A stretch of DNA of 64,000 bases from Flagellimonas aequoris. GTDB taxonomy: Bacteria; Bacteroidota; Bacteroidia; Flavobacteriales; Flavobacteriaceae. Shown in pieces: positions 6,801 to 51,530 of the stretch (positions within the stretch are counted from its first letter, which is position 1; the number at the start of each line of letters is the position of its first letter). The notes beneath the pieces were generated by a model. That model made no database searches, was not told the DNA's origin, and saw nothing but the letters and a program-made list of their open reading frames with translations. A program made the position numbers and the translations under genes. The DNA lies in contig NZ_QXFJ01000017.1 in NCBI RefSeq assembly GCF_003584165.1, positions 1 through 64,000 on the forward strand, given 5' to 3'.

Positions 6801-8158
6801 TATCCAAAAAAACCAACGGCTATAGAAGAGGTGGAAGTCACCTCTACCTTACCGCTTAGCCCAGAAATATAGAATGTTTTCCAATCCGAGTTCCCCGATA
6901 CTGCTTGGGAAGCCGGTTTGGTAACCACCCCGCTTCCATCTGTGACCACAATATCATTATCAGGGGAGGCTGTTGAGGCAATTATGGTTATACCTGAAGT
7001 AAAGCTCAAGCCGGCAATATTGGAAATATCGCTAATATTGTTCAGGGTATCAGGCAGCAGACAGCTTACCGGTGCAATAAAGTTCATGCCAATGTTGGCC
7101 CCAGAATCCGTTCCCGCATTGGTTTGATAGGCATAGGCATTCTTAGAAGTCCTCACATACATATTGGCTCCAGCCGTTGTTCCTGAATAATTGGAACCAT
7201 CTACTTTGTAGTATTCTCCTGCATCAATGGTGGCAACGGCCGTACCGCTGTTCCCTACAAAAACGTCCGTACTATTTTCGGTTGCCAGAATAATGGCAAA
7301 CTCGAGCGGGTCGCTTCCATTGCCACGGACAAAAATGTATTCTTTTCCCAATAAATCAACCGGAACGGGCTGGTCAATACCAGCATCCCTGATATCCGAA
7401 TCTGGGAGAACGGAATAGTTTAGACCTCCATTGCTGATTACAATATCTTTATCGGAAGATACCGAAGCACCCAACCAACCTTCCAAATTATAATCGGTTT
7501 GGTCCACCACGGCTTCTACCACATAGCTTTCATTTGCGTTCAAGGTAATGGTCATGGTGTCATCAGTGATTCCGGCTGCATTGGCACCCAAACGAAAAAC
7601 ACTGTTGATATCATAATCTGAAATGGTCACCGTGGTATTATCCTCAGTGGCCATGATTCCCAAAGTAGTACTGTTGTTGACATTTCCCGACCTTGATTGA
7701 GGAATGCCTCCCCATCTAAATTGGGTCCCCATGGCTGCCCGTCCCTTACTGGTCAGTGACGTTGCTTGGGAACCACTGTATGCCCTATAGTTTACATAAA
7801 ACTGTTCACCTCCCTGTGATTTGAACCTAAGACCACTACTGGAAAGTACCACCCCGGTATTGGCATCGGTTACCATGGAGATATTGTTGTCCCCATTGCC
7901 CAAAGAATACACTCCAGGAGACGAATTGGAAATGGAAATCGTAGTTACCGGTGTGACACTCGTCCCTACAAAAACATCTACATTAAATGCAGTGGAGTTT
8001 GGGGTTGATAGATATACCGATTGCGTTTCAACAGCAGCCGTTGACGACCTTTGTTTTAAGGGCGGTAAATAATGTAGATCACTAAGTTGTGCAAAACTCT
8101 TTCCTACAAATAAAAACAACAGTAAAAAGAAAAAAAACGATGGTTTTTGGTTGTGCAT
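833..8158 (-). CDS. Giant secreted multidomain adhesin-like protein with T9SS type-B C-terminal domain
   Basis: The protein has 2441 residues. Residues 1-24 are a Sec signal peptide (phenylalanine/leucine-rich core ending SFAQ). Then, roughly: an IgGFc-binding-like region (30-470), an Ig-like module (475-540), a DUF11 repeat (545-650), a cadherin-like module (680-777), an IPT/TIG module (775-857), a LamG-like jelly roll (864-1058), a second TIG (1067-1145), propeller-like repeats (about 1150-1400), a third TIG (1523-1602) and a short thrombospondin type 3 array (1605-1692). After an Ig-like stretch comes a long thrombospondin type 3 array (2019-2349) rich in DxDGDG calcium loops. The last ~90 residues start AFTPNGDGNNDTW and end in the gliding-motility/type-B sorting domain used for T9SS export. 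The PorP/SprF gene follows at once. It is probably cell-surface or released; ligand unknown. Confidence 0.9.
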   Translation of the reverse strand: MHNQKPSFFFFLLLFLFVGKSFAQLSDLHYLPPLKQRSSTAAVETQSVYLSTPNSTAFNVDVFVGTSVTPVTTISISNSSPGVYSLGNGDNNISMVTDANTGVVLSSSGLRFKSQGGEQFYVNYRAYSGSQATSLTSKGRAAMGTQFRWGGIPQSRSGNVNNSTTLGIMATEDNTTVTISDYDINSVFRLGANAAGITDDTMTITLNANESYVVEAVVDQTDYNLEGWLGASVSSDKDIVISNGGLNYSVLPDSDIRDAGIDQPVPVDLLGKEYIFVRGNGSDPLEFAIILATENSTDVFVGNSGTAVATIDAGEYYKVDGSNYSGTTAGANMYVRTSKNAYAYQTNAGTDSGANIGMNFIAPVSCLLPDTLNNISDISNIAGLSFTSGITIIASTASPDNDIVVTDGSGVVTKPASQAVSGNSDWKTFYISGLSGKVEVTSTSSIAVGFFGYAGSRSVAGYFSGFDNVSDVNVAITGDVCLPGASLTVTNSGDYQSFQWYFNGEEISGATSATYNPTEAGDYFVQVSKSNCDYDSQTTSVYYCDPDIYVRTTADANSIDDGDTVNFTIRVQNLGNAPVTNLVVTDVLPAGLTLVDATPTAGSWSSPNWTIGTLNSGAVQTLVIEATADYVVGNDGSSNNIINTVSHTQDQTDSNATTDDLSETVQVTNNTLLNLPAFTSANTANFAENGTGTVLDVNANNGDGGSNDSGITYSLASGGDNDLFSIDPDSGELTFQTAPDYEHPSDANTDNTYQITVNALDGDGSSSQSITISVTNLDDSAIITDFSPKIAGNGETVIITGSYFTGTTAITFGGVSATSFTVDSDNQVTAVVGAGASGDVSVINPAGNDVASGFIYKVAQYDFENNADDATANNYDGTEINTVAYQTGAQGQAICFDDGPGFVKLPDNLIRNLSEFTISLRFKTTGTGSILGYQNVAASTSNSPSNWIPILMITSDGKLKGTLWTSISSSIQAISSTAVNDGNWHQVDFTAGTNSVSIYLDGNLEANTSGASVAHLDMSFNQLGFAYTNGYNLAPTSWEYFNGCIDDLVIIDRALSSGEIEAVTALPEPTITSFTPAIAGQEDSVVISGTNFDGATQVTFGGVDATSYTVDSSNQITAVVSSAAASGDVEVTTAGGTATLGGFTFLEQPVLSYVAGISLASLERSLDLSSNQTGSLGFGFDPSGTKLYTLGADATQEIDQYELTEAFNIETATYSQSYVVSSINPSEIKFNTDGSKMYVGSYVNNDVKEYNLATAYDISTASYVGSFTFTTQEQNPFGFDFNLDGSKMYMVGDFSDTVFEYNLSTPFSVSTASVTANTYTVAEDGSVRGLTFGKAGRKMYLMGDQHNTVYEYDLDPAFDITSATLADSYMIAEDVSPYDVEFNTNNDRMFVIGQSSSTIYEYSFGASYAENPANDGSLDNSKALKLLLAKDTFVDLGSGQLTAAQVNITNLPAGLTAVFTINSPTEVTLTFTGSATDHIDGDDVDNLQFVFTDAAFGRGNASIVVNSGAGSPYSSDANIDFNDNPPVIDSFTPTSGEPGDTVVITGTYFDNATDVTFGGTSAASFTVDSPTQISAVVDQGTSGDIAVVTAVGTGTLSGFTYLYPDSDGDGFRDDVDNCASISNADQLDTDGDGEGDVCDTDDDDDGTPDVDDAFPLDDTEDTDTDGDGIGDNADTDDDNDGLLDGEDPNPLVDTQTTAPVLLLPASDETSYDNLTIHYYVPEAPLANSVQVIFNSAEDSNSPITLQLQNPLKDELTTIVVDAKNLASAAEVVSASSSSLVNGASYDITLVYQDALGNPSAQTTNTNHTIITDLEFTHITMTSDNPSSELAREGDRVSVEFGFNRPVDEVVLSIFNTNIVFDDSALIGENTYLGWVEVSGTTSEGPVGFTLTANPSTDNLVATATTDGSSVTIDTTGPQPSLVIEESVYLEPFSIQLQFSEPVFDLAPFPVMIAPDGNGQPMASFGALQEVTPGLVYNILVTPLIPGELVFFNDMYGIARDEAGNPTEPLGFVNGTYYDLDSDNDGIGDSTDPDDDYDGTPDTEDAFPFDPNEDTDTDGDGTGDNADDDDDGDGTLDINDAFPKDPTEDTDTDGDGTGDNADDDDDGDGTLDINDAFPKDPTEDTDTDGDGTGDNVDDDDDGDGTLDINDAFPKDPTEDTDTDGDGTGDNADTDDDNDGTPDNEDAFPLNPNEDTDTDGDGIGNNTDDDIDGDGIPNDQDVYPYGEITDSDNDGVPDAEDAFPNNPNESVDNDGDGIGDNADDDDDNDGTPDTEDAFPWDPSEDIDTDGDGIGNNADTDDDNDGTPDNEDAFPQDAMEDSDNDGDGVGDNADDDDDNDGVPDGSDDFPTDSKPNIIPAQAFTPNGDGNNDTWIVPGIENYPNNVVKVFNRYGHEVYATQSYHNDWGGFYKSRNEKLPAGSYLYVIDLGDGSTPIQGWIFINY
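1110..2105 (-). repeat. Tandem thrombospondin type 3 coding repeats, 105-bp period in the core
   Basis: Within the adhesin gene the phrase TTCGGGAAAG (or TTCGGGAAGG) recurs at 1701, 1806 and 1911, a 105-bp spacing equal to 35 residues. Each unit encodes an acidic DTDTDGDGTGDN loop plus an INDAFPKDPTE linker. Flanking units are more divergent. A shorter array of the same kind lies at about 3085-3345. These are calcium-binding stalk repeats. The near-identity of three central units points to recent duplication, so copy number may vary between strains. Confidence 0.9.
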
Positions 8159-9070: not shown

Positions 9071-10414
9071 TCAATTCTCCCCAACATAAAAGGGAATATT
9101 GGCAGTTGCCGAATGATTGTTCCCATCATTTGCATAAACAAACAATCTATATGCACCTTTTTGACTTGGTGCAGCAAATTTCAAGGTAGTTCCAGATTCT
9201 TGTATGAACAATCCCTCAACACTTCTTGGGCGATCCTCATGATCCCCCCCTTCACCTTGACTTTGACTTTCCGGTAATATTTCCCAATGAAAATCCAAAT
9301 TATCACCATCTGGTTCTGTTAAGGAAAGTTGTGAAGCATATTCCTGACCTGCCTTTAAATGAACATTTTGTTGAGCCGTTTTTCCATCCAATACAAACGA
9401 AACAATTTTGGGGGATCGGTTTGCAGGCCATTGTCCGTTCCATATATAGTGCATCACATCTACTGCTTCCGTTTCATTTCCATTTTCCAAGAAAATGCCG
9501 TACCAAGTTGGAGTTCGTTCCTGTTTGTTCCCCCATAGAAAAACGTAGGAGCCCAAACACTTTTCTTGATCCACGGCAATACCATTTTGATACCTTTTCA
9601 AATAGTTATCGGCTTTGACCGTGGTATTTTCTTCCAAAGGAGCACCCCATTCCGTTTGGGGAACTTCCCAATGTCCGGTGGCCCCCCATTCCGTCACCAT
9701 GTAAGGCCCATCCCATTGATACTCTTGCAACAAGCGAGGCAAGCTGGGTAGGTCTCCGTACATCTGAATGGATAAAATGTCAATTTGGGGGCATTTTTGC
9801 TTAACGAAATCAATCTCCCGTTGTGATACCCCTGCCAAAGTGGTCGTAGTAGGGTGATTGCCATCAATCTGATGGATCATGTTTGCAATATCATTCACGG
9901 CATCCCATACTTTGGGATTGGTGTAATTCAAATTCAATTCATTTCCAATGCACCAAATTAGAAGGGCTGGATGATCCTTTAGGGACATGACCTCCTCACG
10001 GATCCGTTGTTTTTGAGCTTCCACCAGATCAGTATCGTTATAGTCGAATCCATGGCGTTCGCTACCCATTTCCAATCCCATGGTCACCATCAACCCATTT
10101 TTCTTGGCCTCATCCAATACTTCCTTTCCAGATTGTTGTCCATTGCCAGTACGCCAAGTCCTAAAACTATTTCCTCCATGCTCGGCCAAGGACTTTATGT
10201 TTCCAAATTCCAAACCGGCCCCATGAATAAAAAAAGGTTTCCCATTAACACTCAGGGAAAAACCGCCCTGTTTTTCAGTGACCGTTACGGATGAGGGACC
10301 CTCGGTTTCCCTTTTTGAACTGCTATTTACTATCTGTTCACTATGGACCTTTTCTTTACAACCCAGAAACAGAGCCATAAGGGCCAGGACTGGCAAAAGT
10401 TGCTTCATGTTCAT
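9071..10414 (-). CDS. Clan GH-A (GH2/GH158-like) glycoside hydrolase lipoprotein of the beta-glucan locus
   Basis: The start is set at 10414 (MNMKQLLP) because a lipoprotein signal peptide follows (LALMALFLGC); the frame is open further upstream but that part has no signal features. The body is a TIM-barrel of the GH2 C-terminal type, with the acid/base motif IGNEL (Glu about 159) and a nucleophile motif VTEWGA (Glu about 242), 83 residues apart. A C-terminal Ig-like domain begins near residue 330 (NRSPKIVSFVLDG). The GH2 N-terminal jelly roll is missing, so ordinary GH2 is unlikely. Position beside GH16 and the Glu spacing suggest a GH158-like endo-beta-1,3-glucanase, but family assignment needs a profile search. 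It is the last gene of the glucan operon, 68 bp after GH16. Confidence 0.75.
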   Translation of the reverse strand: MNMKQLLPVLALMALFLGCKEKVHSEQIVNSSSKRETEGPSSVTVTEKQGGFSLSVNGKPFFIHGAGLEFGNIKSLAEHGGNSFRTWRTGNGQQSGKEVLDEAKKNGLMVTMGLEMGSERHGFDYNDTDLVEAQKQRIREEVMSLKDHPALLIWCIGNELNLNYTNPKVWDAVNDIANMIHQIDGNHPTTTTLAGVSQREIDFVKQKCPQIDILSIQMYGDLPSLPRLLQEYQWDGPYMVTEWGATGHWEVPQTEWGAPLEENTTVKADNYLKRYQNGIAVDQEKCLGSYVFLWGNKQERTPTWYGIFLENGNETEAVDVMHYIWNGQWPANRSPKIVSFVLDGKTAQQNVHLKAGQEYASQLSLTEPDGDNLDFHWEILPESQSQGEGGDHEDRPRSVEGLFIQESGTTLKFAAPSQKGAYRLFVYANDGNNHSATANIPFYVGEN

Positions 10415-10482
10415 TATAAATCCCTTAAAAATTATGGTAACACAATAGGGGTACAATTCATTGGCCCTCATAAAGAATCCGA

Positions 10483-12168
10483 TTATTGATACACCCTGAT
10501 ATAGTCAACTTCCAATGTTGATGAAACGAACGAAGGATCTATGGCCCCCCCAAAATTACCTCCCATGGCCACATTCAAAATCAAGAAAAAGTCTTTATCG
10601 AACGGACGGTTTGCATCATTGGAAAGGGTACCGTATTCCACATCGTCTACCAAGAATGTAATTTCTGTTTCAGTCCAAATAACACTGTACACATGAAAAT
10701 CATCGGAAACACCGCTGATGGTAGTTGTAACACTTCTGGAATTGCCCGCAAAATTTAAAGGGTCGTGGGTGGTCCCTACGATCACATCTTGGTTGTTGCC
10801 CACATGTTCCATGATATCAATTTCACCGGCGGCCGGCCAACTATTGGTTTCAAAATCCGCACCCAGCATCCAAATGGCCGGCCAAGTACCCCCACCTGTT
10901 GGCAATTTGGCCCTTGCATCGACCCTACCATACTGAAATTCAAAATTTTGATAGGTTTGGATTCGGGACGAGGTGTAACCACTACCATTAAAACTTTCTG
11001 CTTTTGCCGTAATCTTGAGCAGACCATTTTCCTGGATGATGTTTTCAGGACGATCGGTATAGTATTGTAACTCGTTGTTGCCCCAGCCATTGTCCCCTGT
11101 GCCCAAATCATAGTTCCAAATGGAAGGGTCCGGTGCACCATCTACATTAAACTCTTCTGACCAAACCAAGGTATCAAAATTGGCTTCAGAACCGCCATCA
11201 CCCTGTTCGCTTACCGGGGTGGTAGAGAATTTAAGATACCAAGCCAAATTGGGATCATTACCATCTATAGCCCTTACATACATGGAAGTAGCCGTGATAT
11301 TGAGAATTTCATAGGTTGAGGTGCTGATGTAGTATCCCATAAAGCCATCATTGGTGAAATTCATAACCGTACCCCTTGCACTGAATGCCGGATCTGGAAC
11401 CTGGGACCAGTCTACCGTTGTAGGAGATAAAGATACACTGCTCACTCCCGAAGTATCAAAATCAAAACAGGCATCTTCGGCACCCGGGCCGCCAACCACA
11501 TCTTGGTGCCCGACATTAAAGAACGTGGCTCCTTTGTTATCCTGCACATAGGTCAACTGGTTTCCTGTTGCATTCAATGAAAATGTAAGCTCGTCATCGC
11601 AAAAACAGGAACTGGCCTCCAAATCACACTTTTCAAAAGGATTGGCAGAATAGAAGGCTGGATACCAAAATTGATCGGGCAAAAAGGCGAAAGTTGCCCC
11701 CACCCCAAGATGACCGGGCTCCACAGCGGCCAAATACCAAGTTTTGGATGATGGAGAAACAACCGTTCCTTCATCATTCAATTCCCCGCCCGTCAATAAT
11801 TCCATGGCTTCATAATCAGAGAAATCACTTTCAACAGCCACTTGATATGATGCCGATGAACTTACCCCACCAGTACCATAAGCCACTACGGAATAGTTAT
11901 AAGTATTCAATCCCACCAAAGTAAATCGTTTGGTAACGGTTCCATTGGGCGAAACCTGAACGTCTCCATCACTGAATTTGAAGGTATAGGATATTGCGTT
12001 GTCCGCACTGGCAGTAAACACCACTATTCCAGAACCATCGGTACTTACCTGTGTTGAAACCGATAAATTAGACGGCACCACAATGAGATCCAAGGTAGGT
12101 TCTTCCTCCTGGCATCCTATAATGATAAGAGCGATTGCCCATGTTAGTGCTAATATGGCCTTTTTCAT
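10483..12168 (-). CDS. GH16 laminarinase-type endo-beta-1,3-glucanase, surface lipoprotein
   Basis: The protein has 561 residues with a lipoprotein signal (ALIIIGC, then acidic EEE, typical of surface export in Bacteroidota). Order: a PKD-like domain (about 25-115), a ~170-residue middle module (about 130-310), and a GH16 catalytic domain (about 325-561). The catalytic motif EIDIMEH has Glu449, Asp451 and Glu454, the GH16 nucleophile/helper/acid-base set. The DGAPDPSIWNYDLG and YYTDRPEN segments resemble laminarinases. The middle module contains TWYLAAVEPGHLGVG and is related to the triple repeat of the adjacent binding protein. The enzyme probably cleaves beta-1,3-glucan at the cell surface for the SusCD pair. 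The gene starts 12 bp after the binding-protein stop. Confidence 0.92.
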   Translation of the reverse strand: MKKAILALTWAIALIIIGCQEEEPTLDLIVVPSNLSVSTQVSTDGSGIVVFTASADNAISYTFKFSDGDVQVSPNGTVTKRFTLVGLNTYNYSVVAYGTGGVSSSASYQVAVESDFSDYEAMELLTGGELNDEGTVVSPSSKTWYLAAVEPGHLGVGATFAFLPDQFWYPAFYSANPFEKCDLEASSCFCDDELTFSLNATGNQLTYVQDNKGATFFNVGHQDVVGGPGAEDACFDFDTSGVSSVSLSPTTVDWSQVPDPAFSARGTVMNFTNDGFMGYYISTSTYEILNITATSMYVRAIDGNDPNLAWYLKFSTTPVSEQGDGGSEANFDTLVWSEEFNVDGAPDPSIWNYDLGTGDNGWGNNELQYYTDRPENIIQENGLLKITAKAESFNGSGYTSSRIQTYQNFEFQYGRVDARAKLPTGGGTWPAIWMLGADFETNSWPAAGEIDIMEHVGNNQDVIVGTTHDPLNFAGNSRSVTTTISGVSDDFHVYSVIWTETEITFLVDDVEYGTLSNDANRPFDKDFFLILNVAMGGNFGGAIDPSFVSSTLEVDYIRVYQ

Positions 12169-12180
12169 TTCCTTAGATTT

Positions 12181-14262
12181 TTAATCTTTTATCAACTTAT
12201 ATTGCCAAAATACCCCAGCTCCTGATTCAATGATTACGTTCATGGTAGTATCATTATCGGTCAATGTTACCGTGTAAGTAATGGAATCCGGAAGGGCCAC
12301 ATTGGGAAGCTCCCCTGCATTTACCGCCTTTGGGAGTCCAATATAAGCTCCGGCTCCATTAATGGTCAATGTACCCGCATTGGCCTCATATGCAAAGGTT
12401 GCAGCAGCAGATCCATCATGGGGAGCAACGGGTGTTCCACAAGCGTCGGAACCACCTTGCCAGCCTTCAATCCAAGTATCGGCACCCAAAACGTTCATAA
12501 AAGAACCATCGCCACCGAACACATAGGTATCATCAAAATAACAGGCCCTTGTGGTCACCCCTGCTTCATCTATGGCAAACCAACTGATATCGCCAGGTGC
12601 AGGACCTACACCCAATGAACCTGCTTCAGGGGCCATTCTCCAAGTACCTTCCAATGGGGAAGGAGTGTCTTTAATCAGTTTATATTGCCAGAAAACGCCT
12701 GCTCCCGACTCAATGATTACGTTCATGGTGTTATTGTTGTCCGATAAAGTAACATTGTAAGTGATGGAAGTAGGCACCGCCACATTGGGAAGTTCTCCCG
12801 CATTCACTGCTTTGGGAAGCCCAATATAAGCTCCGGTACCATTAATGGTCAATGTACCAGCGCCTGCATCATAAACATAGGTTGCGGGAGCCGAACCATC
12901 ATGTGGCGCGACCGGCACTCCACAGGCATCCGAACCTCCTTGCCATCCTTCGATCCACGTTTCCGAACCTAGCACGTTTGCAAACGAACCACCTTCACCA
13001 AAAACATAAGTATCATCAAAATAACAGGCCCTTGTGGTCACTCCTGCTTCATCAATGGCAAACCAACTGATATCCCCGGGGGCAGGACCTACACCCAATG
13101 AACCCGCTTCTGGGGCCATGCGCCATGTTCCTGCCAATGAAACAGGTGGAACACTTCTCAACAGTTTATACTGCCAGAACACACCGGTGCCGGATTCAAT
13201 GAACACACTCAACGTATTGTTGTCCACAAGGGAAACATTATAGGTAATGGATGATGGTACTGCCACGTTTGGAAGTTCCCCTTCATTCACTGCCTTAGGA
13301 AGACCAATATAGGCTCCAGTACCGTTAATGGTCACTGTACCTGCCACACCATCAACTGTGTAGGTCGCAGGTGCGGAGCCATCATGCGGTGCAACGGGAG
13401 CCCCACAGGCATCTGAGCCTCCTTGCCATCCCTCAATCCAGGATTCAGCACCAAGGCTGTTCACAAAAGTACCATCCTGATTAAAGGTATAGGTATCATC
13501 AAAATAACAGGCCCTTGTGGTCACTCCAGCCTCATCAATGGCAAACCAACTGATATCCCCGGGAGCAGGGCCCACACCAAGTGAGCCTGCTTCTGGAGCC
13601 ATTACCCAGGTTCCGATCAAATCCTCAGTGGTGATGGTCACCGGATCTTTTATGTTAATGGTCTGTGTTGTTTCTACAGTAACAGCGCTTACCCCACGTG
13701 CAACCACTCTTACTTCGTAGTCGCCCGCTGAGGCATAAACGTGATTTACGGTTTCCCCATTCATGATGGTCGTCGGTTCCTCATCCTCAACATCGCCAAA
13801 ATACACATCAAAAACAGTAGCATTGGCTGCCGTTGGCGCAACCGTAACTTCATAGGAATTTGTGGCGGAAACGGTCACATCCACGTTCAAATCACTGGGT
13901 GGTGTAAACGAAATGATCACTATCCTACTCAACTCGCTGGTAAGACCTGTTGGACCCACCCCGATTATTTTCAGGGTGAATTCGCCCTCCCCATACGTAT
14001 GGGTAACCATCTCCCCCGGAGCGGCTTCGGTGGCGTCCTCGTCCTCGGTATCCCCAAAATATATTTGGAATACAGAGGCTCCTTCCCCTGTTGGAGTCAC
14101 AGAAACGGTCCCTGTGTCATCATTAGAAATATCGAAGATGGCACTTAGGTTTGTAGGCGCGGAGATATCCTGAAAAACATAGGATTGTTCCTTATCGTCT
14201 TCGCAAGAACCAAGCATGCCAAGCACTAGAAAAAGTACTGTTAGGTGTTTAAAATATTTCAT
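12181..14262 (-). CDS. Surface glycan-binding lipoprotein with two PKD-like domains and three tandem repeats
   Basis: The protein has 693 residues. Its lipoprotein signal (LGMLGSC) is followed by EDDKE, an acidic surface-export signal. Two PKD/Ig-like domains (about 35-210) precede three ~155-residue repeats, each opening with MAPEAGSLGVGPAPGDISWF and ending with FWQYKL. The repeats keep conserved Trp and Cys residues (CYFDDTY, WIEGWQGGSDAC, GAYIGLPKAVN). No catalytic motif is recognised. Position between SusD and GH16, a surface lipoprotein signal and multivalent repeats fit a SusE/F-like glycan-binding protein for laminarin. A ligand-binding role for the repeat is inferred; one diverged copy sits inside the GH16 enzyme next door. 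Confidence 0.82.
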   Translation of the reverse strand: MKYFKHLTVLFLVLGMLGSCEDDKEQSYVFQDISAPTNLSAIFDISNDDTGTVSVTPTGEGASVFQIYFGDTEDEDATEAAPGEMVTHTYGEGEFTLKIIGVGPTGLTSELSRIVIISFTPPSDLNVDVTVSATNSYEVTVAPTAANATVFDVYFGDVEDEEPTTIMNGETVNHVYASAGDYEVRVVARGVSAVTVETTQTINIKDPVTITTEDLIGTWVMAPEAGSLGVGPAPGDISWFAIDEAGVTTRACYFDDTYTFNQDGTFVNSLGAESWIEGWQGGSDACGAPVAPHDGSAPATYTVDGVAGTVTINGTGAYIGLPKAVNEGELPNVAVPSSITYNVSLVDNNTLSVFIESGTGVFWQYKLLRSVPPVSLAGTWRMAPEAGSLGVGPAPGDISWFAIDEAGVTTRACYFDDTYVFGEGGSFANVLGSETWIEGWQGGSDACGVPVAPHDGSAPATYVYDAGAGTLTINGTGAYIGLPKAVNAGELPNVAVPTSITYNVTLSDNNNTMNVIIESGAGVFWQYKLIKDTPSPLEGTWRMAPEAGSLGVGPAPGDISWFAIDEAGVTTRACYFDDTYVFGGDGSFMNVLGADTWIEGWQGGSDACGTPVAPHDGSAAATFAYEANAGTLTINGAGAYIGLPKAVNAGELPNVALPDSITYTVTLTDNDTTMNVIIESGAGVFWQYKLIKD
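12184..13623 (-). repeat. Three ~480-bp direct repeats inside the glycan-binding protein gene
   Basis: Units lie at about 13153-13623, 12670-13143 and 12184-12655. The block TAACAGGCCCTTGTGGTCAC recurs unchanged at the same point of each unit, and long stretches are near-identical at DNA level. The copies appear recently duplicated and could recombine or collapse in short-read assembly. Confidence 0.9.
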
Positions 14263-14282
14263 ATTTCAAAGTTTAATTTTTA

Positions 14283-15734
14283 TTAATACCCAGGGTTTTG
14301 TTGCCAGCGGTTCCCGGCCAATTCAATTTCTATGGATGGGATGGGAAACAATTCATTTTTTCCGACCTGGAAGCCATCTATCTCAGTGGCGGCCCTACCC
14401 GTTCTTACCAAATCAAAGAAGCGATGACCTTCCCCAACCAACTCCACTCTTCTTTCTTGATATATGGCTGTTGTCAGTGCGTTTCCAGTACCAGTAGCAT
14501 CGGGAAGACCAGCCCTGTTCCGTACCTCATTCAGATACAGTAATGCAGTATCATCGTCTATTCCTCCCCTGTTTAGGGCTTCGGCAGCCATGAGCAGCAC
14601 ATCTGCGTAGCGGATAGCGCGATAATTATTCGGGTTGGTCAAATTGGCATCTCCCGTGTTCAGGTCTCCTTTTCTGGCGATGTATTTTCTATTATAATAT
14701 CCAGTATGTTCAAATCCTTCATTGTAGGAAACTCCAGTATTCGATGCTGCCCAAGCTTCTATATCCAGAATGGCCACATCCCTTCTTAGGTCCCCATCCT
14801 CAAAGGCATCATATGCTTCCTGGGTCGGTACGTTAAAGCTAAAACCAGATTCAAAAACGGGCCCTGTATAGTTTCGGATACCATTGAAACCTACTGCAAC
14901 GTTTCCTTCGCTACACTGTAGACAACCAAACCCTGCTCCTTCTACATCGGTATACTGTACTTCAAAGACGGACTCTATATTATTCTCGTTATCGTTTTCG
15001 AACATGGTACTGTAATCTTCCAAAAGGTCATAGTTTTTTGAGTTGATAACCTCCTGCAGCACCGCAGCCGATTCTTCAAATTTCTCCTGGTAGAGATACA
15101 CCTTACCCAAGAGAGCCTGTGCGGCACCCTTCGTGGCCCTTCCTACCTCAGATTGAACCTCTGGAAGATTGGACGCGGCATAAATGAGGTCTTGCTCAAT
15201 TTGCGCGTACACTTTAGAAGCCGGAGTCCTTTCCACTACGTTCTGGTCTCCGAACAACAGCCGTTGGTCCACGGCCAAGGGCACGTCACCAAACCATTTC
15301 ACCAATTCAAAATAGTAATACGCTCTCAGAAAAGTTGCCTCGGCAAGTACTACATTTTTGTTTGGAAAATCTGTTTTGTCCTTAAATTCCAACACATAAT
15401 TGGCCCGATTTACCCCAGCGAACATCCAACTCCAAATATCCCTTAACTGTTGGTTCACAGGAGTGTGTGTCATATTATCCACTTCTTGGATTCCAGGGAC
15501 ATCCGTGGCGCTTTCACCACCGGCCAAAGTGTTATCGGAAGCAATTTCTCCCAACATGACATTCAAATAGGTAGACTGCAACATATCGTATGCGGCAATT
15601 AGGGCACTTTGGTAATCCTCCTCGGAATTGAAGAAGTTTTCGGTATCCTCATTGAACGAATCCACATCAACAAAGCTGTCTGTACAAGCCCATAAGATCA
15701 GGCTCAATAGCAGTACAACAAGACTATTTTTCAT
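14283..15734 (-). CDS. SusD/RagB-family nutrient-binding outer-membrane lipoprotein
   Basis: The start is placed at 15734 (MKNSLVVL) since a lipoprotein signal follows (SLILWAC). The mature protein opens DSFVDVDSFNEDTENFFNSEEDYQSALIAAYDML and has SusD features throughout: NRANYVLE, EATFLRAYYYFELVKWFGDVPLAVD, LGKVYLYQEKF and a C-terminal YADVLLMAAEALNR/YLNEVRNRAGLP block. Such proteins are alpha-helical TPR-like lids over the SusC barrel that capture oligosaccharides. It directly follows SusC and precedes the glycan-binding lipoprotein. The substrate, inferred from GH16, is a beta-1,3-glucan oligosaccharide. Confidence 0.95.
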   Translation of the reverse strand: MKNSLVVLLLSLILWACTDSFVDVDSFNEDTENFFNSEEDYQSALIAAYDMLQSTYLNVMLGEIASDNTLAGGESATDVPGIQEVDNMTHTPVNQQLRDIWSWMFAGVNRANYVLEFKDKTDFPNKNVVLAEATFLRAYYYFELVKWFGDVPLAVDQRLLFGDQNVVERTPASKVYAQIEQDLIYAASNLPEVQSEVGRATKGAAQALLGKVYLYQEKFEESAAVLQEVINSKNYDLLEDYSTMFENDNENNIESVFEVQYTDVEGAGFGCLQCSEGNVAVGFNGIRNYTGPVFESGFSFNVPTQEAYDAFEDGDLRRDVAILDIEAWAASNTGVSYNEGFEHTGYYNRKYIARKGDLNTGDANLTNPNNYRAIRYADVLLMAAEALNRGGIDDDTALLYLNEVRNRAGLPDATGTGNALTTAIYQERRVELVGEGHRFFDLVRTGRAATEIDGFQVGKNELFPIPSIEIELAGNRWQQNPGY

Positions 15735-15771
15735 GACTAATATTTTAGATTTGCTCATCATTTTTATCCCA

Positions 15772-18700
15772 TTAAAATTTTAGGTTCACTCCCAATAAAT
15801 AGGTTCTGGGTACCGGATAAAATCCTTGGTCTATACCTGCACCTATCGGTGCCCCGGAGGAAGCACTTGGGTCGTACCCGCGATATTTGGTAAAAGTGTA
15901 AATGTTATTGACAGAAACATAAACCCGGAGCTTATCGGCACCGAAACGATCCATAAAATCATTGGAAAATGTATAGCCCAATTGTGCATTTTGTAGCCGG
16001 ACAAAAGAGCCATCCTCAACATAAAAATCAGAAAACAACGTATTGGAAGTGGCCCCAGTGGTTACCCTTGGATAGGTATTGGTCGATCCTTCACCCGTCC
16101 AACGATTGAGTGCATAAACAGATTTATTCACCAAGGGTTGATTCCGTTCATAATTCCTCACAATTTCATTCCCTATGGATGCAAAGGCGTACGTGCCAAA
16201 GTCGAAGTTTTTATAGGTTATGGACAAATTCAGCCCCATTGTCGCATCAGGAATGGGATTTCCAATGTCTACACGGTCGTCGGAATCAATGACATTGTCC
16301 CCATTTTGATCCACAAAACGCAAATCGCCGGGAGCAGCATTCGCTTGGGTCGCATGGGCATCCACTTCGCCTTGGTTTTGAAAAACACCATCGGTTTCCA
16401 AACCAAAGAAATAGCCAATAGGTTTTCCTGCTTCCATCCTAGCCGGTGGGTCTTGCCCAACACCGAAGCCCCCTCCTTGCAGAAAGCCCGCTTCATTGTT
16501 TACCTCGGTCACCTCATTTTCCAAAAGGGTCACATTATAGTTGACCCCCAATGAAAAATCCTCTGATGGGCTGTACTTGTATCCAATGGCAAATTCGATT
16601 CCCTTGTTCACTACGGTTCCTCCATTGACGATTGGGGCCTGTGCCCCCGGTGCCGAAGCCCCCAAAATTCCTGATACTTGGGGCTGCAAAAGCAAGCCAT
16701 CGGTTGTTTTGTTGAAATAATCCGCGGTAATATCAATGGCATCATTGAAAAGACGAAGATCAAGACCGATATCATAGGTTTTTTGTTCTTCCCATTGAAT
16801 GGCGGGATTGGGCAGTACTCCCACTGCTTGACCAAATACCAATTCACCATTCAGCACATAGGCAGCCTCTCCTCCCAATACACCCCTAAAACCGTTGGAA
16901 GCAATTCTGTCGTTACCCAAAATTCCGTAGCTACCTCTCAATTTTAAAAAGTTGATGGTCTTGTTTTCCTTCAAAAAATTCTCATCTGAAGCAATCCAAC
17001 CTACAGAACCAGAGGGAAAATACCCGAATCGGTTTTCTGGACCGAACTTGGTGGAACCATCCCTTCTGATAACCCCTGAAAAAAGATATTTTCCTTTGTA
17101 GTCATATTGAACCCGAGCAAAATATGAAAGGAGGCGTTCATCGAACTTGCCACTCAATCCACTGTCGACCAATCCATTTCTTTGATCAACGGTGTTGGCA
17201 ATATCAGCTTCGGGAAAAGAGACTTCATTTTCGAAGAATCCTGTAGTGGTTCCCGAAAAAAGTCCTGTGGTCCTAAAAACCGAGGTTCCTAGGGTCACTT
17301 GAAAATTATGGTCCCCATTCAGGGTTTTGGTATAATTCAGGAAAGCATCAAAAGTGTAATCCCTGAAAAGATCCTTGTTCACTGCCAATGAGTTTCGACC
17401 AATATTGTTGAACACCTTCCCTGAACCGTAAAAAACCGTAGGTGAAAAATTCCTTCCCTGTACTTCTGCATAATTGAACTGTAAACTCGTTTCTACCGTA
17501 AAATCCTCCAAAAACTTATAATTGAGCGCAAACTTTCCGCTCAATCGGTCCACTTTGTTTGCATTGAAGGTGTTAGCTACCTGAGCTATCGGATTTATCA
17601 CTTCATTGCCCAGACCTTCGGCCAATGTATAGTCGCCATTGGCGTCCCTCACCGAAAAAGTCGGTGCATTGTTCAAGGCATTAAATAGGACTGAACCTAT
17701 AGCATTTTCGGACAGGGTTTTTCTTTCGGTCCCTGTGTACAACAAATTGGCGGTCAACTTGAGATTTTCTAATAAATCCGTATTAAAATTGACCCGCGTG
17801 GTATATCTTTTGAAATTGGCCTTGTTCCCACCTACAATACCATCTTGTGTTAAAAGTGAAGCTCCAAAGGAATAGGTGGATTTTTCACTTCCCCCATTGA
17901 TGGTCAAATTATGGTTGAAGATCGGGGCATTTTGAAAGACCTCATCTTGCCAGTCGGTCCCTGTACCCAATCCAGCAAAGTTGGGATAAGGGTTGGGCTG
18001 GCCATTGGCTGCGAAAGCCTCGTTGATCAAAACGGCATATTCGGTAGCGTTCAATACGGGAATGGTCCTGGAGGTTTGTTGAAAGCCACCGTAGGCATCA
18101 TAACTAAACTTAAGTTCCGAGTTTTTACGACCGGTCTTGGTTGTGATCAATACAACACCATTTGCAGCCCTTACCCCATAAATTCCCGCGGTGGCATCTT
18201 TCAATACATTTATGCTTTCTATATCTCCGGGGTTGAGCACACTGAGGTCTTCTATTACGTTGCCATCGACCAATATCAAAGGTCTATTGTCCCCGTTGGT
18301 GGAGATTCCCCTGATCCTGATATTGGAACCACTACCTGGTGACCCGGATTCTGAAGTAATGTTGACCCCCGAAATTTGGCCTTGAAGGGCTTGCTCGATC
18401 CTTGTTGGATTCAGTTCCTCAATGGTCTGTGACCCAACGACCGCAACTGCGCCTGTCACTTCCTTTTTAGTCTGGGTGCCATATCCAATGACCACAACCT
18501 CATCCAGAGCACTGACGTCTTCTTGCATGTAAACTGTGATGGCGTTAAGATTACGTATTTCAATTTCAGTGGTCTTGAAACTGATGTAGGAGAAAACCAG
18601 AACATCCCCTATGCCAACATTGGAAAGGGAAAAGTTACCATCAAAGTCGGTTGTGGTTCCGTTGGAGGTATTTTTCACCACAACATTAACTCCGGGAAGT

Positions 18701-18807
18701 GGTTCATTGGTAGACTGATCGTATACCATACCCGTTATGGTGGAATTTTGGCCGTATGTGAAACTTATTGCTAATAGCAAAAACAGAATAGATAGGATAT
18801 GCTTCAT
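15772..18807 (-). CDS. SusC/RagA-family TonB-dependent oligosaccharide transporter
   Basis: The start is set at 18807 (MKHILSILF) in front of a Sec signal ending TYGQ. A carboxypeptidase-D-like domain follows (GMVYDQSTNEPLPGVNVVVK), then the TonB-box region DEVVVIGYGTQ, the plug (LQGQISGVNI, RIRGISTNGDNRPLILVDG, VLKDATAGIYGVRAANGVV) and a 22-strand barrel ending in the aromatic TYLLGVNLKF. It takes up oligosaccharides across the outer membrane together with the next gene, a SusD 37 bp downstream. There is no N-terminal STN domain, so sigma/anti-sigma signalling is not expected; the sensor gene just upstream is the likelier control. Confidence 0.96.
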   Translation of the reverse strand: MKHILSILFLLLAISFTYGQNSTITGMVYDQSTNEPLPGVNVVVKNTSNGTTTDFDGNFSLSNVGIGDVLVFSYISFKTTEIEIRNLNAITVYMQEDVSALDEVVVIGYGTQTKKEVTGAVAVVGSQTIEELNPTRIEQALQGQISGVNITSESGSPGSGSNIRIRGISTNGDNRPLILVDGNVIEDLSVLNPGDIESINVLKDATAGIYGVRAANGVVLITTKTGRKNSELKFSYDAYGGFQQTSRTIPVLNATEYAVLINEAFAANGQPNPYPNFAGLGTGTDWQDEVFQNAPIFNHNLTINGGSEKSTYSFGASLLTQDGIVGGNKANFKRYTTRVNFNTDLLENLKLTANLLYTGTERKTLSENAIGSVLFNALNNAPTFSVRDANGDYTLAEGLGNEVINPIAQVANTFNANKVDRLSGKFALNYKFLEDFTVETSLQFNYAEVQGRNFSPTVFYGSGKVFNNIGRNSLAVNKDLFRDYTFDAFLNYTKTLNGDHNFQVTLGTSVFRTTGLFSGTTTGFFENEVSFPEADIANTVDQRNGLVDSGLSGKFDERLLSYFARVQYDYKGKYLFSGVIRRDGSTKFGPENRFGYFPSGSVGWIASDENFLKENKTINFLKLRGSYGILGNDRIASNGFRGVLGGEAAYVLNGELVFGQAVGVLPNPAIQWEEQKTYDIGLDLRLFNDAIDITADYFNKTTDGLLLQPQVSGILGASAPGAQAPIVNGGTVVNKGIEFAIGYKYSPSEDFSLGVNYNVTLLENEVTEVNNEAGFLQGGGFGVGQDPPARMEAGKPIGYFFGLETDGVFQNQGEVDAHATQANAAPGDLRFVDQNGDNVIDSDDRVDIGNPIPDATMGLNLSITYKNFDFGTYAFASIGNEIVRNYERNQPLVNKSVYALNRWTGEGSTNTYPRVTTGATSNTLFSDFYVEDGSFVRLQNAQLGYTFSNDFMDRFGADKLRVYVSVNNIYTFTKYRGYDPSASSGAPIGAGIDQGFYPVPRTYLLGVNLKF

Positions 18808-19045
18808 CTGTAGAGTAATTAGAAGCTGCAACCTATCCCTAAAATTTTAAGATGCCATAAAAATCACCTCAACAAAAAATATACATTATTAAAAAAAAGC
18901 ATGTAAAATTACATTATCATCAAGAAAAGCCCTATTTAATCAGCTATTTCAGAATAACAGCACTGTTGTATAATTTTAAGAATAACTTAAGATTTTGGTT
19001 CTTGTATAGGTAATGTTGTGGTAAACTGAACATTTGTATTGTTTT

Positions 19046-21847
19046 TTAAATGCTTAAAATATACTCAATCAGTCCCTCTTCATGCGGAAGTTTCATTTTT
19101 TTGCGCAATCTGTATCGCTTTACCTCCACACTTCTAAGGGAAATGTTCAATAATGGGGCAATTTCCTTGGAGGACAAGTTGAGTCTTAAATAAGCGCAGA
19201 GGCGAAGATCGTTTGCCGTGAGTTCCGGGTGTTGTTCCTTGATCTTTTTTAAGAAATGTTTGTCGGCATTGTTAAAAGCTTCCTCAAAAAACTTCCAGTC
19301 ATCTTCATTGGAAATATTTCGGTCAATGGTTCGGATCACCGATTTGATGGCACTCTCATTATTAGCTTTCTTTAGTTGGTCTTTGATGGCATTCAAAAAT
19401 TCATTCTTTTTGATCAGACTCATTGTGGAAACCGCCAATTCCCTATTCTTTGCTTCTATCTCCTGCAGAAGTCTTTCATTGTTTATCTGAACAATCCTCT
19501 TTTGGTTCTGAATTTTCTTACGCTTCAATTTGCGTTTATTCTCTTTAACAATGCGTTCCCTTTGCTTGCGATAGTATCGTTTATAAACCCTGTGGATAGA
19601 AAAGGACATCACCAAAAAGACCAGACCATACATCACCAATGCAGGTATGGATAAATACCATGGCCTACGGATGATAAAAGCATAGCTTGCTGTATTTTCG
19701 GTCAAACTACCACCTACTTTTGCCCTTACCTTAAAAATATAATCCCCAAATGGCAGATTTTCAAAGGAAATTTCTGGTTGGGACGACCAATTACTCCAAC
19801 TGTCATAGAGTCCTACCAATTGGTATTGGTACCTTACCTCAGTATACTTGTCATATTCGGGTACACTATAGGCAAAACCCAAACTATTGTCCTCAAATCT
19901 GAATTCCATTATGGAATCGTGGGGAACCGATTGGGACGGTTTGTTGTGGTATTCCTTTGTAACACCCGTGAGATAAATTGGATAGTCATGGGCTACAACT
20001 TTCTCGAGGTCCAAGGTCACATATCCACCAGAAGTGCCAATCAAATAGTTGCCATTTCCCAAGGCATTGATATTTTCAAAACCTGAAACACCTAGGTTGC
20101 TCCTAAAAAAAGAGGGGATGGCAATTTTGCTCAATCTAGGGGTATTGCCAATATTGCTCGGCTCAATATAAAGCATATCATGATCTGCAAAACGCCACAG
20201 TCTATTATTGCTATCATCGGGAATCAAGATACTCATAGGTCCCTCTCCTTCAGCTTCAAAAACCTTGGTAAGAGTTGAATCTAAAACAAACTCTTGGTCT
20301 TGGTTCGCAAAGGAAAACACCCCATTATTTGTCGCGTACAACAGTTGATCATTGAACCGCACCAAACTGGTCGCATACCCTTTCCCTAATTCCGGTGTAT
20401 TGGATACCACCTTGGTTTTCCCCGAGTTGAGTTCCAAATGAAAAAGCCCTTTGTATTCATGATTAACGACCACATGGTCGGGGTCCGAAAACTCAAAAAA
20501 CCTACTGGAAACATTAAACCCTTCAATTTTGTATCCCAACCCCCATTGGCCTTGTTGGTATTTCAATACGCTCAAACCATTATAATTGCCTTGCAAAAGT
20601 CTGTCGGGTACGCCTTCAATTTCCTTAATGTTCCACGTTCCTGGAACATTACTGATCAGTTCTGCGCGATTCCCCTCTACAAGATAGGTGCCGTTATTAT
20701 GGCCACAGAACAATTTGTTTTTCAACTTCACCAAACACCAGACTTGTCCTTCTGTTCCAGGAACCAAATCAAAATTGTTCGTCGAGGACCGACTTCTGAA
20801 CAAACCTTGATTGGTACCCAGATATAAATCTCCATTATAGACGGTAGAGGTGTAAACCACCCCTAGATTACCGGCCGTATCATTGTACTCCTGAAAAGGT
20901 GAGCTTAGATTGAGTATACTCAGCCCTATATCATGGGCCAGCCAAAGATTGGAGTCCTTATCCTCAAAAATGTTCAATATAGTGTTATTGTTCAATCCAT
21001 TTTGCTGATTGATATGTTGTAGCAATTGACCCTCCTTGGTCATTTGGTACATTCCATGGGATATGGTACCCAAAATCACACTTTGATCTTTGAGTTGCAA
21101 AAAACTGTAGATACTCAAGTCAGCTGACCCGGAATCAAGATTGAATTGCCATGGACGTATTTCACTTCCTCCTTTTGAAAAAAAACCTTGCCCATCCGTG
21201 GTCAAATAGACCAACCCATCGTTATTTTCAAATATCCCGACCACGGTTCGACTTTTTATGGATGGATCATCGGTTACCAGTTCTGGTCTATTCTTGGTTA
21301 TTTTGTAAATCCCCTTATCCTTTATCTGGAACAAGATACCATGGTCCCTTAAATTGAAAATTTTTGCCTTTGCGGTCTCGGCCTCGATTATGCCAATACT
21401 TTTATCCAAAATATTGTATACATAAATTCGACTCAAGGATTGAAACAAAACAGAATCATCCACTACTTGAACATTCCAAAATTCCTCATCCTCCAAAACA
21501 GGCTGATCAATAATGCCTAGTAAGGAGGTATAGGAAAGCCTGCCCAAACCATCCTTGGTCCAAAAGCCAAAGTCCATATAACAACCCGTGTAAATGACGT
21601 CGCCCGCCACGGAAACAGCACGAAAAATTGACCCATTTGGGGATGGATAGGATTTCCATCTTACCCCATCAAATTCCAATAGAGTATGATTATTGGCTAC
21701 ATATATAAACTTATCATTGGTTTGGGCCAAACTCCAATTTTGGTTTTCGCCCAAATACCTTGAGGGAGTAAATACTTGTATCGGTGAAAGTTCCTGAGAG
21801 AAGGAAACACAACAACAGAAGCAAAGAAATAAGCTAAAAATTTTCAA
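19046..21847 (-). CDS. One-piece membrane sensor: two-component-type propeller, Y_Y_Y domain, LuxR-like HTH
   Basis: The protein has 933 residues. A Sec-type signal is followed by an extracytoplasmic beta-propeller built of Reg_prop-like blades (LWLAHDIGLSILN, DLYLGTNQGLFRS), then a Y_Y_Y domain (about 640-710: YQYQLVGLYDSWSNWS, FGDYIFKVRAK), one transmembrane helix (about 720-745), a basic coiled coil and a C-terminal LuxR/GerE-like helix-turn-helix (LTANDLRLCAYLRLNLSSKE). Histidine-kinase and receiver domains are absent, so this is not a full hybrid two-component system; it resembles SusR-like regulators that bind sugar outside and DNA inside. It lies upstream of susC on the same strand with a 238-bp gap holding the presumed target promoter. 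It probably activates the glucan locus. Confidence 0.87.
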   Translation of the reverse strand: MKIFSLFLCFCCCVSFSQELSPIQVFTPSRYLGENQNWSLAQTNDKFIYVANNHTLLEFDGVRWKSYPSPNGSIFRAVSVAGDVIYTGCYMDFGFWTKDGLGRLSYTSLLGIIDQPVLEDEEFWNVQVVDDSVLFQSLSRIYVYNILDKSIGIIEAETAKAKIFNLRDHGILFQIKDKGIYKITKNRPELVTDDPSIKSRTVVGIFENNDGLVYLTTDGQGFFSKGGSEIRPWQFNLDSGSADLSIYSFLQLKDQSVILGTISHGMYQMTKEGQLLQHINQQNGLNNNTILNIFEDKDSNLWLAHDIGLSILNLSSPFQEYNDTAGNLGVVYTSTVYNGDLYLGTNQGLFRSRSSTNNFDLVPGTEGQVWCLVKLKNKLFCGHNNGTYLVEGNRAELISNVPGTWNIKEIEGVPDRLLQGNYNGLSVLKYQQGQWGLGYKIEGFNVSSRFFEFSDPDHVVVNHEYKGLFHLELNSGKTKVVSNTPELGKGYATSLVRFNDQLLYATNNGVFSFANQDQEFVLDSTLTKVFEAEGEGPMSILIPDDSNNRLWRFADHDMLYIEPSNIGNTPRLSKIAIPSFFRSNLGVSGFENINALGNGNYLIGTSGGYVTLDLEKVVAHDYPIYLTGVTKEYHNKPSQSVPHDSIMEFRFEDNSLGFAYSVPEYDKYTEVRYQYQLVGLYDSWSNWSSQPEISFENLPFGDYIFKVRAKVGGSLTENTASYAFIIRRPWYLSIPALVMYGLVFLVMSFSIHRVYKRYYRKQRERIVKENKRKLKRKKIQNQKRIVQINNERLLQEIEAKNRELAVSTMSLIKKNEFLNAIKDQLKKANNESAIKSVIRTIDRNISNEDDWKFFEEAFNNADKHFLKKIKEQHPELTANDLRLCAYLRLNLSSKEIAPLLNISLRSVEVKRYRLRKKMKLPHEEGLIEYILSI

Positions 21848-46300: not shown

Positions 46301-46594
46301 CTTAATGGAGAAATTCCCGTCGAAATCCGTCTGAACACCATTGGAAGTTCCTTTTTCCACTACACTTGCCCCTGGCAAGGGATTTCCGTCACTATCGGTC
46401 ACAGTACCTCTAATAGTGATGTCCTGTTGACCCTCACGGCCCTGCTCTCTTTCTAAACTTAATGCATTATTAAAGTCCAAAGGACCTAGGAACGATTTGG
46501 GCACAGCCGCCCAAATCCCTTGCAGAAACCCTATGGAAAGGTATGCAAGGAAAATACAAGTTCCCTTTTTAAAGGATACGAATTGATTTAGCAT
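43388..46594 (-). CDS. SusC/RagA-family TonB-dependent transporter of the LacI-regulated locus
   Basis: The 1068-residue protein has a signal peptide followed by a ~35-residue linker, then the carboxypeptidase-D-like domain ([20 protein letters not shown]), the TonB-box region [15 protein letters not shown], the plug ([45 protein letters not shown]) and a barrel ending in [12 protein letters not shown]. It moves oligosaccharides over the outer membrane. A perfect 20-bp LacI-type palindrome lies about 170 bp upstream, so it is probably derepressed when the sugar ligand binds the adjacent LacI protein. Confidence 0.96.
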   Translation of the reverse strand: [1068 protein letters not shown]

Positions 46595-51300: not shown

Positions 51301-51530
51301 CATTTAGACTTTTAACCAGCAGGCTTCCAAAGGAAGAAGAACTAGAAACCCTGCTGGAACTTTATACCAAAGAAAAAAGTCGTTTTGAACAAGAGTCCGA
51401 GGAAATGTCACAACTTCTGGATATTGGGGATTACAAATTGGACACTAAAGAGCAAAATGCCAATATAGCGGCACTGACAGTGGTGAATAACATCATTATG
51501 AATTTTGACCCTGTTTATACTAAATATTGA
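48357..51530 (+). CDS. Planctomycete-type cytochrome: PSCyt1-DUF1549-LamG-DUF1553 lipoprotein
   Basis: The 1057-residue protein has a lipoprotein signal (LILSVSC). Residues 40-135 form the PSCyt1 domain with a c-type haem site (Cys52-x-x-Cys55-His56, KCFACHG) and a distal methionine region VMPP. DUF1549 follows (about 165-375: DHFVLKKL, LRRLSFDLTGLPPT, ARYADTHGYQDD) with a second CxxCH near 340 (ECARCHDHKYDP). A LamG-like jelly roll lies at about 455-640 and DUF1553 at about 735-1010 (PLTSRVVVNRLWQSLFGRGLVETSNDFG, HPELLDWLA). These proteins are typical of Planctomycetes and of unknown biochemistry; carbohydrate oxidation or binding is suspected. A LacI-type operator immediately upstream ties it to the GH38 locus. 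Confidence 0.92.
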   Translation: MKVILRLCISFCLILSVSCHNYKTEELVSVEQSIPDLIDYNFHVRPILSDKCFACHGPDKSKQEAGLRLDIREEALNELKQTPGNYAIVPGKPGKSVVFERIMSADPEMVMPPIESHLELTSREKAILAKWIDQGAEYEEHWAFQLPKKQPVPDIKYPGEAYNEIDHFVLKKLRDEGLEFSLTANKENLLRRLSFDLTGLPPTLKELDQFISGQKSYEDMVDHYLASDSYGEKMATAWLDLARYADTHGYQDDGPRRMWPWRDWVINAYNDNMPYDQFIKWQLAGDKYPNPTLEQMIATGFNRNHLINVEGGIIAEEYRVEYVLDRTNTFGKAFLGLSFECARCHDHKYDPISQKDYYSTSYFFNSVDEMGQGQRDFPEVQPPSVLLTTEEKDKVLLFLKNQTEESRKSLENIALSSAGDFKGWVNKVNLKDLFNAPLVEPVESYPFEDSKEFKSIEGIEGRAVLFDGGGGLSFPGKMDFERYDPFSYSFHIKPPEPNGTFNFFTKSTGEFGGFRGIEMQLVDNRLELRMSHRYPNNAIRVRSCDPLLPEQWAHVGVTYDGSSEAKGIRIFINGKLQEFEVLRDNLYKSIVPYLNNSNGTYGIVFGYQFNAQGFPNGALDEFKIFDVELSQFEMNLLAKNNDYKEQLMALPKENLKQNEQLKEFYLLRKSKEMETEREQLALARKAENDTLSGIPEIMVMKDIQDSVRTTYVLERGNYDSHGEQVGPGLPDALMSTSVVQPKTRMELAEWVVSKENPLTSRVVVNRLWQSLFGRGLVETSNDFGSQGSLPTHPELLDWLAIDFIESGWDVKRMIKQIVMSKTYQQSSKASPELLDKDPNNELLARGPKYRLPAEMIRDNILAASGLLVEKIGGPSVKPYQPEGLWQEKASFVGENKYVRGTGDDLYRRSLYTYWRRTIPPPSMITFDVPDRNMCTVRRQSTTTPLQPLIMLNGPEYMEAAKVLASRVAESEHENVENQITRAFRLLTSRLPKEEELETLLELYTKEKSRFEQESEEMSQLLDIGDYKLDTKEQNANIAALTVVNNIIMNFDPVYTKY

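Follow-up and report, generated by a model that had tools for sequence, protein, structure and literature searches.

A lipocalin-like module repeated in a predicted surface glycan-binding protein and shared with a GH16 enzyme in a putative beta-1,3-glucan utilization locus of Flagellimonas aequoris

We analyzed a stretch of 64,000 nucleotides from Flagellimonas aequoris (contig NZ_QXFJ01000017.1, positions 1 to 64,000; hereafter the window), whose minus strand carries a polysaccharide utilization locus (PUL). Its genes are transcribed in the order regulator, SusC, SusD, surface glycan-binding protein (SGBP), GH16 enzyme and GH158 enzyme (Table 1). The predicted SGBP carries three tandem repeats (R1, R2 and R3, together R) and the GH16 enzyme holds one diverged module (G). 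We propose that R and G are, with high probability, two branches of one lipocalin-like beta-1,3-glucan-binding module that serves laminarin capture in a locus of SusC/SusD, SGBP, GH16 and GH158.

Table 1. Genes, domains and modules of the locus in transcription order, with window coordinates.
Feature	Coordinates	Strand	Details and matches (E values)
LuxR-type Y_Y_Y regulator, likely locus sensor	19046..21847	-	Pfam Y_Y_Y 5.7e-10; GerE 1.7e-4 (under its cut-off)
SusC/RagA TonB-dependent transporter	15772..18831	-	TIGR04056 6.9e-257
SusD-like protein	14283..15761	-	Pfam SusD_RagB 3.5e-32
SGBP, surface glycan-binding lipoprotein (predicted)	12181..14262	-	693 aa
SGBP signal peptide and lipobox	14203..14262	-	LGSC, then EDDKE; translation read by eye
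SGBP, two PKD-like domains (stalk)	13645..14166	-	approximate boundaries
R1, lipocalin-like putative glycan-binding module	13153..13623	-	157 aa; most diverged copy
R2	12670..13137	-	156 aa
R3	12184..12654	-	157 aa; modelled (pLDDT 96.9); best solved match 7KV5/6/7, Z 14.2
GH16 enzyme	10483..12168	-	561 aa
GH16 enzyme signal peptide and lipobox	12112..12168	-	IIGC, then QEEE; read by eye
GH16 enzyme PKD-like domain	11824..12087	-	Pfam PKD 0.53 (weak); within the 7kv5 match (residues 28-314)
Module G	11206..11823	-	206 aa (residues 116-321); modelled (pLDDT 95.6); best solved match 7KV5/6/7, Z 21.1
GH16 catalytic domain	10486..11172	-	EIDIME motif; closest solved structures are laminarinases (3iln 3.7e-57)
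GH158 enzyme	9071..10471	-	466 aa; PDB 9oro (GH158) 1.8e-100; 6pal 6.2e-73

The repeats start 483 nt (161 aa) apart. R1 and R2 are 83%, R1 and R3 78% and R2 and R3 88% identical in amino acids, and nucleotide identity among the copies is 73-80%. An earlier note on this stretch, made from its letters alone, had described three near-identical repeats; the number stands but the near-identity does not. The proportion of synonymous sites that differ between copies (pS) is 0.60-0.68, near saturation, and the ratio of nonsynonymous to synonymous divergence (dN/dS) is 0.06-0.10. Residues 3-43 vary at a single position, and an alignment of 63 R sequences has 21 invariant columns, including W5, R36, E63, W65, Q66 and W150. 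Near-saturated pS together with low dN/dS indicates that the copies are old and have been kept by purifying selection. A recent local duplication is rejected in view of the state of the synonymous sites, and the amplification that the note had suggested is real but old. We found only four copies of the module in the window genome, namely R1 to R3 and G.

G carries TWYLAAVEPGHLGVG close to its start and LAWYLKFSTT at its end. Extra loops bring it to about 206 residues, compared with about 157 for R, so that the unit of some 155 residues given in the note suits R but not G. When only two sequences were compared, the likeness was weak (BLASTP of R1 against G, a single comparison: 28% over 94 aa, E 0.002). 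Profile-profile comparison of 35 R with 34 G sequences gave a probability of 96.2 and E 2.2e-9, and hhalign of 63 R against 50 G rows, drawn from the window and named genomes, gave a probability of 97.4, E 1e-11 and a score of 74.8 over 139 columns. Among the controls, none of 60 column-shuffled alignments exceeded 20.9, and reversal gave 18.6. When R was compared instead with the GH16 catalytic domain (57 rows), with PKD (70) and with the domain found upstream of the repeats in related proteins (60), the scores were 17.8-20.9. The R-G score is far above both the shuffled and the neighbour-domain controls, which places the relation well beyond chance. In sequence, R and G are 21-24% identical. 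Among 299 genomes of the family, a single R sequence matched ten places at E 1e-5 to 1e-3, five of which (in genomes G031, G082, G109, G174 and G179) were also matched by a single G sequence, the other five being without a G match at E 0.001. Profile-profile comparison confirms what the note had seen, a module shared by the SGBP and the GH16 enzyme and lying between the PKD-like and GH16 domains of the latter.

A known family name was not to be had from Pfam or NCBIfam: none of the 63 R members and none of the 50 G members matched a model at E 0.001, and scans of the whole SGBP and GH16 enzyme returned only weak PKD matches, GH16 and its kin, and chance matches. AlphaFold2 models of R3 and G, both with high mean pLDDT (predicted local distance difference test), were compared with the PDB, where the only matches under E 0.001 were chains of 7kv5, 7kv6 and 7kv7 (Foldseek E 1.9e-6 for R and 7.6e-12 for G). 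VIA-align superposed 135 residues of R on these chains at 2.7 Å and 167 residues of G at 2.2-2.4 Å; the next best Z was 9.2 for R, to lipocalin-like proteins, and 8.2 for G. In both predicted models the lipocalin-like fold extends across the whole domain, and unrelated folds, which would have spoken against a shared module, were not seen. According to their PDB titles, the three entries are SGBP-B of Bacteroides fluxus (BfSGBP-B) alone (7KV5), with mixed-linkage glucotriose (7KV6) and with laminaritriose (7KV7). G also matches 7kv5 by sequence (phmmer 5.8e-7 with a single sequence, 8e-19 with a profile), and a LGVGP stretch with an aromatic pair after it is common, by eye, to the G/7kv5 and R/G alignments. 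Homology to the C-terminal domain of BfSGBP-B is thus direct for G and runs through G for R.

In the available text of its description, BfSGBP-B binds laminarins and barley mixed-linkage glucan, as seen by affinity gel and isothermal titration calorimetry (ITC), and yeast beta-glucan weakly (PMC7157763). In Maribacter GH16_3 enzymes, a PKD domain is followed by a second domain that has been assigned to BfSGBP-B, and the available text mentions a further, inserted BfSGBP-B-like domain (PMC11345257). The note had called the module uncharacterised. As a whole this fails, because a relative has been solved with laminaritriose and binds laminarin and the Maribacter domain already has its assignment; for R it holds in so far as no Pfam or NCBIfam model and no PDB sequence matches it.

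The other genes of the locus point to the same substrate. GH158 is a family of endo-beta-1,3-glucanases, and the Pfam label of the 466-aa protein is a GH2-type barrel only. For Bacteroides GH158 enzymes, the source text at hand gives laminarin as the preferred substrate. The EIDIME motif of the GH16 domain was read from the sequence, and we take it to have its usual meaning in this family. With a GH16 domain that matches laminarinases, a GH158 protein and a SusC/SusD pair, the locus reads as one for beta-1,3-glucan utilization, and it combines the SusC/SusD pair, SGBP and GH16/GH158 enzymes that mark PULs of the 1,3GUL (beta-1,3-glucan utilization locus) type. GH3, a core gene of Bacteroides 1,3GULs, occurs four times in the window genome and was not found on the window's contig; we therefore regard the PUL as one that works like a 1,3GUL and do not file it under the Bacteroides type. 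The SGBP, the GH16 enzyme and the GH158 protein have lipobox-like N-termini as judged by eye. Our reading of the SGBP as an outer-membrane lipoprotein presumes that the lipobox rule and an acidic export signal apply here. Its second PKD-like domain (residues 146-202) matches Pfam PKD at E 3.4e-4 and PKD_4 at 5.2e-4, both under the gathering score, and the first, which is without a Pfam match, was recognized by eye.

Elsewhere in the window, open reading frames (ORFs) of SusC size (1038-1068 aa) lie at 43388-46594, 48357-51530 and 59865-62981, each beside one of SusD size, and these three pairs perhaps mark further PULs. Positions 833-8158 encode a protein of 2441 aa with long runs of DxDxDG-type repeats, whose C-terminus, by eye and presumably, resembles gliding-type sorting domains. 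No tRNA was found in the 64-kb window.

How R and G are distributed was assessed with an R-profile scan of contigs, in which 464 of 490 pattern matches were relatives; the best 80 of the 464 were kept as 79 loci. With stretches that end early scored as misses, a related GH16 was present in 73 of these loci, G in 70, SusC and SusD in 68 each, a relative of the regulator in 65 and a GH158 relative in 16. Wherever R and G occur together (70/70), the G gene starts no more than about 90 nt past the stop of the R gene. G and GH16 share one ORF, in the order PKD-G-GH16, in 57 of the 70 G genes. The remaining 13 are without GH16 and, at 296-353 aa, have the shape of BfSGBP-B, so that the window enzyme resembles an SGBP-B to which a GH16 has been fused. 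The earlier note had the module spreading within one operon, and this part of it has to be given up: R and G are low in identity and separately conserved, and 70 of the 79 loci, which come from many genera, have G directly after R, so the split must predate the operon's present owner. We likewise reject a transfer of the module from SGBP to enzyme within the window operon, R and G being two old families.

With single-sequence queries at E 0.001, R was found in 51 of the 299 family genomes, part of these matches being weak and partial, and G in 96. In a sample of the phylum, the R profile at 1e-5 matched 13 of 395 genomes, the window genome included. Among 71 genomes of the genus, R occurs in the window genome alone and G in the window genome and one other. 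Given this rarity in the genus, the PUL (9071-21847) may have been acquired horizontally; loss in the other genomes would explain it as well. Foreign base composition was of no help as a sign of recent import, as G+C in 4-kb windows is 0.40-0.47 across the PUL and 0.38-0.49 in the rest of the window, and neither was the tRNA search of the window, which was negative.

Copy number of R varies, and one position in front of the repeats is exchanged. Of the 79 R proteins, 67 carry a different domain, some 160 aa long, ahead of their repeats (64 with two R and 3 with one). None of the five proteins with three R has this domain, and the window SGBP likewise lacks it. As in the window, a third R occupies the slot in M. 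vaceletii (L064), another Maribacter (L070) and a Cellulophaga metagenome-assembled genome (L096). Six proteins with one R are also without the upstream domain, three of which end at contig ends (L063, L071 and L115) while three are GH16 enzymes (L065, L077 and L085); L130 has two R and no such domain. The upstream domain itself (ISIYSGYYTD..NWGQ; L074:7041-7511) is matched in 12 other ORFs of these loci, in some of them repeatedly; the L074 copy had no Pfam match up to E 0.1, and the best PDB match of the domain, at E 0.46, was not useful. A tree of 157 repeats places the L096 copies in a group of their own (support 100/99), separate from those of Maribacter and the window, and so points to more than one origin of triple arrays.

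R also occurs in enzymes. In L065 (Allomuricauda) and in L077 and L085 (Croceivirga), the ORF that encodes GH16 carries R, and not G, on its upstream side. In L065 the immediate neighbours of R are PKD and GH16; in L077 a CBM_4_9 domain separates R from GH16. Two of these enzymes (L065:7614-9680 and L077:7569-10166) also have a stretch inserted within GH16; in L065 the GH16 match is interrupted between residues 368 and 523, an insert like that reported for Maribacter GH16_3. A contig binned as Halieaceae (L120) has a GH16 fragment followed by three R on one ORF, and in a second one (L140) three R share one ORF and the GH16 fragment is on a separate one; these contigs, of 4.8 kb and 6.4 kb, could be misbinned. 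In the tree, the three R of L065, L077 and L085, the six of L120 and L140 and the three of the window form a set of 12 rows (support 99/93). These data show GH16 proteins and binding proteins exchanging R, though in lineages other than the window's. Like a carbohydrate-binding module (CBM), G is a discrete domain on a carbohydrate-active enzyme, and so is R in L065, L077, L085 and L120. Marinimicrobia contigs (L115 and L130) have R in large proteins, in L130 as two R in an ORF of 1464 aa with CBM9 and Por_Secre_tail matches; the occurrence in Marinimicrobia and Halieaceae is that of the R-profile scan loci.

GH16 laminarinases and GH158 enzymes cut beta-1,3-glucan, SusC/SusD pairs import oligosaccharides and SGBPs catch glycans. 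On this background we envisage a division of labour in which the lipid-anchored SGBP would hold its three R out on a PKD stalk and capture laminarin chains at the cell surface. The single G would keep the GH16 enzyme on the chain during cutting, GH158 would cut further and SusC/SusD would import the pieces. It is a fair inference that the R array raises avidity for long chains, as the earlier note had supposed.

Several points weigh against this interpretation. Neither the whole protein as a single query nor an R profile matched any PDB sequence up to E 10, which leaves R tied to BfSGBP-B via G and via the fold, and the R-G alignment is loose in its middle. A common fold is no proof of ligand, as lipocalin-like barrels bind many things. 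The context counts rest on the best 80 of 464 relatives and so describe close relatives only, and 63 of the 79 loci have no GH158 relative within the stretch at hand.

The main doubt is the ligand of R. The repeats may have shifted ligand within the beta-glucans, and one alternative is that G binds laminarin whereas R, though of the same fold and origin, has switched to another glycan, be it a mixed-linkage, branched or cell-wall glucan. The low R-G identity leaves room for this; the invariant residues R36, E63, W65, Q66, K109 and N112 of R have no counterpart among the nearly invariant G columns, and BfSGBP-B itself is described, in the text available, as binding mixed-linkage glucan besides laminarin. 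We nevertheless consider a switch rather unlikely, as most of the 79 loci have the repeat SGBP side by side with GH16 and SusC/SusD genes, and R stands in for G in the enzymes with GH16 of L065, L077 and L085, which suggests the same substrate. Alternatively, the repeats might act mainly as a spacer or as a docking platform for SusC/SusD or the enzyme and bind no glycan. A copy number of one to three and a slot that a different domain can occupy would suit such a role, but 21 invariant columns over 63 sequences and the low dN/dS would not, nor would R in a GH16 protein on a contig without SusC/SusD (L120, only 4.8 kb long), and we hold this to be improbable. That the likeness is a chance match of short motifs (LGVG, WY) between unrelated domains, as the weak BLASTP result might suggest, can be dismissed in view of the hhalign controls and of two models that match the same solved domain.

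Laminarin is among the largest algal carbon pools, and its possible surface catchers often carry no annotation beyond 'PKD-domain' or hypothetical protein. The absence of R and G from Pfam and NCBIfam is a useful gap, because a family model would give names to many genes (a single scan yielded 464 R-type stretches) and would connect beta-glucan capture in the sea with that in the gut by a common fold. Natural proteins with one, two and three modules make the value of multivalency directly measurable. Beyond the shared module, we suggest tentatively, and with some doubt, that R is an undescribed and widespread laminarin-binding family, used singly, in pairs or in threes, swapping with an unrelated domain and having entered GH16 proteins in two or more further lineages (one of these binned outside Bacteroidota), in which tandem copy number would tune the capture of algal carbon.

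Among known systems, BfSGBP-B is the closest. It shares with the window proteins a PKD-like domain followed by a lipocalin-like module and an SGBP gene in a beta-1,3-glucan locus with SusC/SusD, and it matches G directly in sequence and R in fold. It differs in that its solved chain of 290 residues matches one module whereas the window SGBP carries three R, in that the window G is joined to a GH16 enzyme, and in that R, at about 20% identity when aligned by structure, was missed by sequence search. Other lipocalin-like Bacteroides proteins (4gzv, 4qrl, 4iab and others) share the barrel fold, R reaching Z 8.9 to 9.2 against them, but match far more weakly than BfSGBP-B, and their likeness to R may be one of shared arrangement only. 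Searches of open-access papers, which took in neither subscription journals nor most preprints nor CAZy and so do not prove absence, brought up none that by title or abstract deals with such a module arrayed in tandem in an SGBP for laminarin. PKD-domain proteins do figure in the laminarin PUL proteomes of Formosa, as far as the available text goes (PMC6246565). The Maribacter GH16_3 laminarinases resemble the window enzyme in having PKD, a BfSGBP-B-like module, a GH16 catalytic domain and a lipid anchor; they differ, according to the text available, in a length of about 700 aa, a second domain inserted in GH16 and a position outside PULs in the genomes of that study (PMC11345257). The window enzyme, in contrast, is 561 aa long, has no insert, with GH16 unbroken from residue 333 to 561, and is part of a PUL. 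With the Bacteroides 1,3GULs, finally, the window locus shares a TonB-dependent transporter, a SusD-like SGBP-A, an SGBP-B and GH16 and/or GH158 enzymes, and it differs from them in lacking GH3, in having a LuxR-type Y_Y_Y regulator in place of a hybrid two-component system (HTCS) and in its extra, multi-repeat SGBP.

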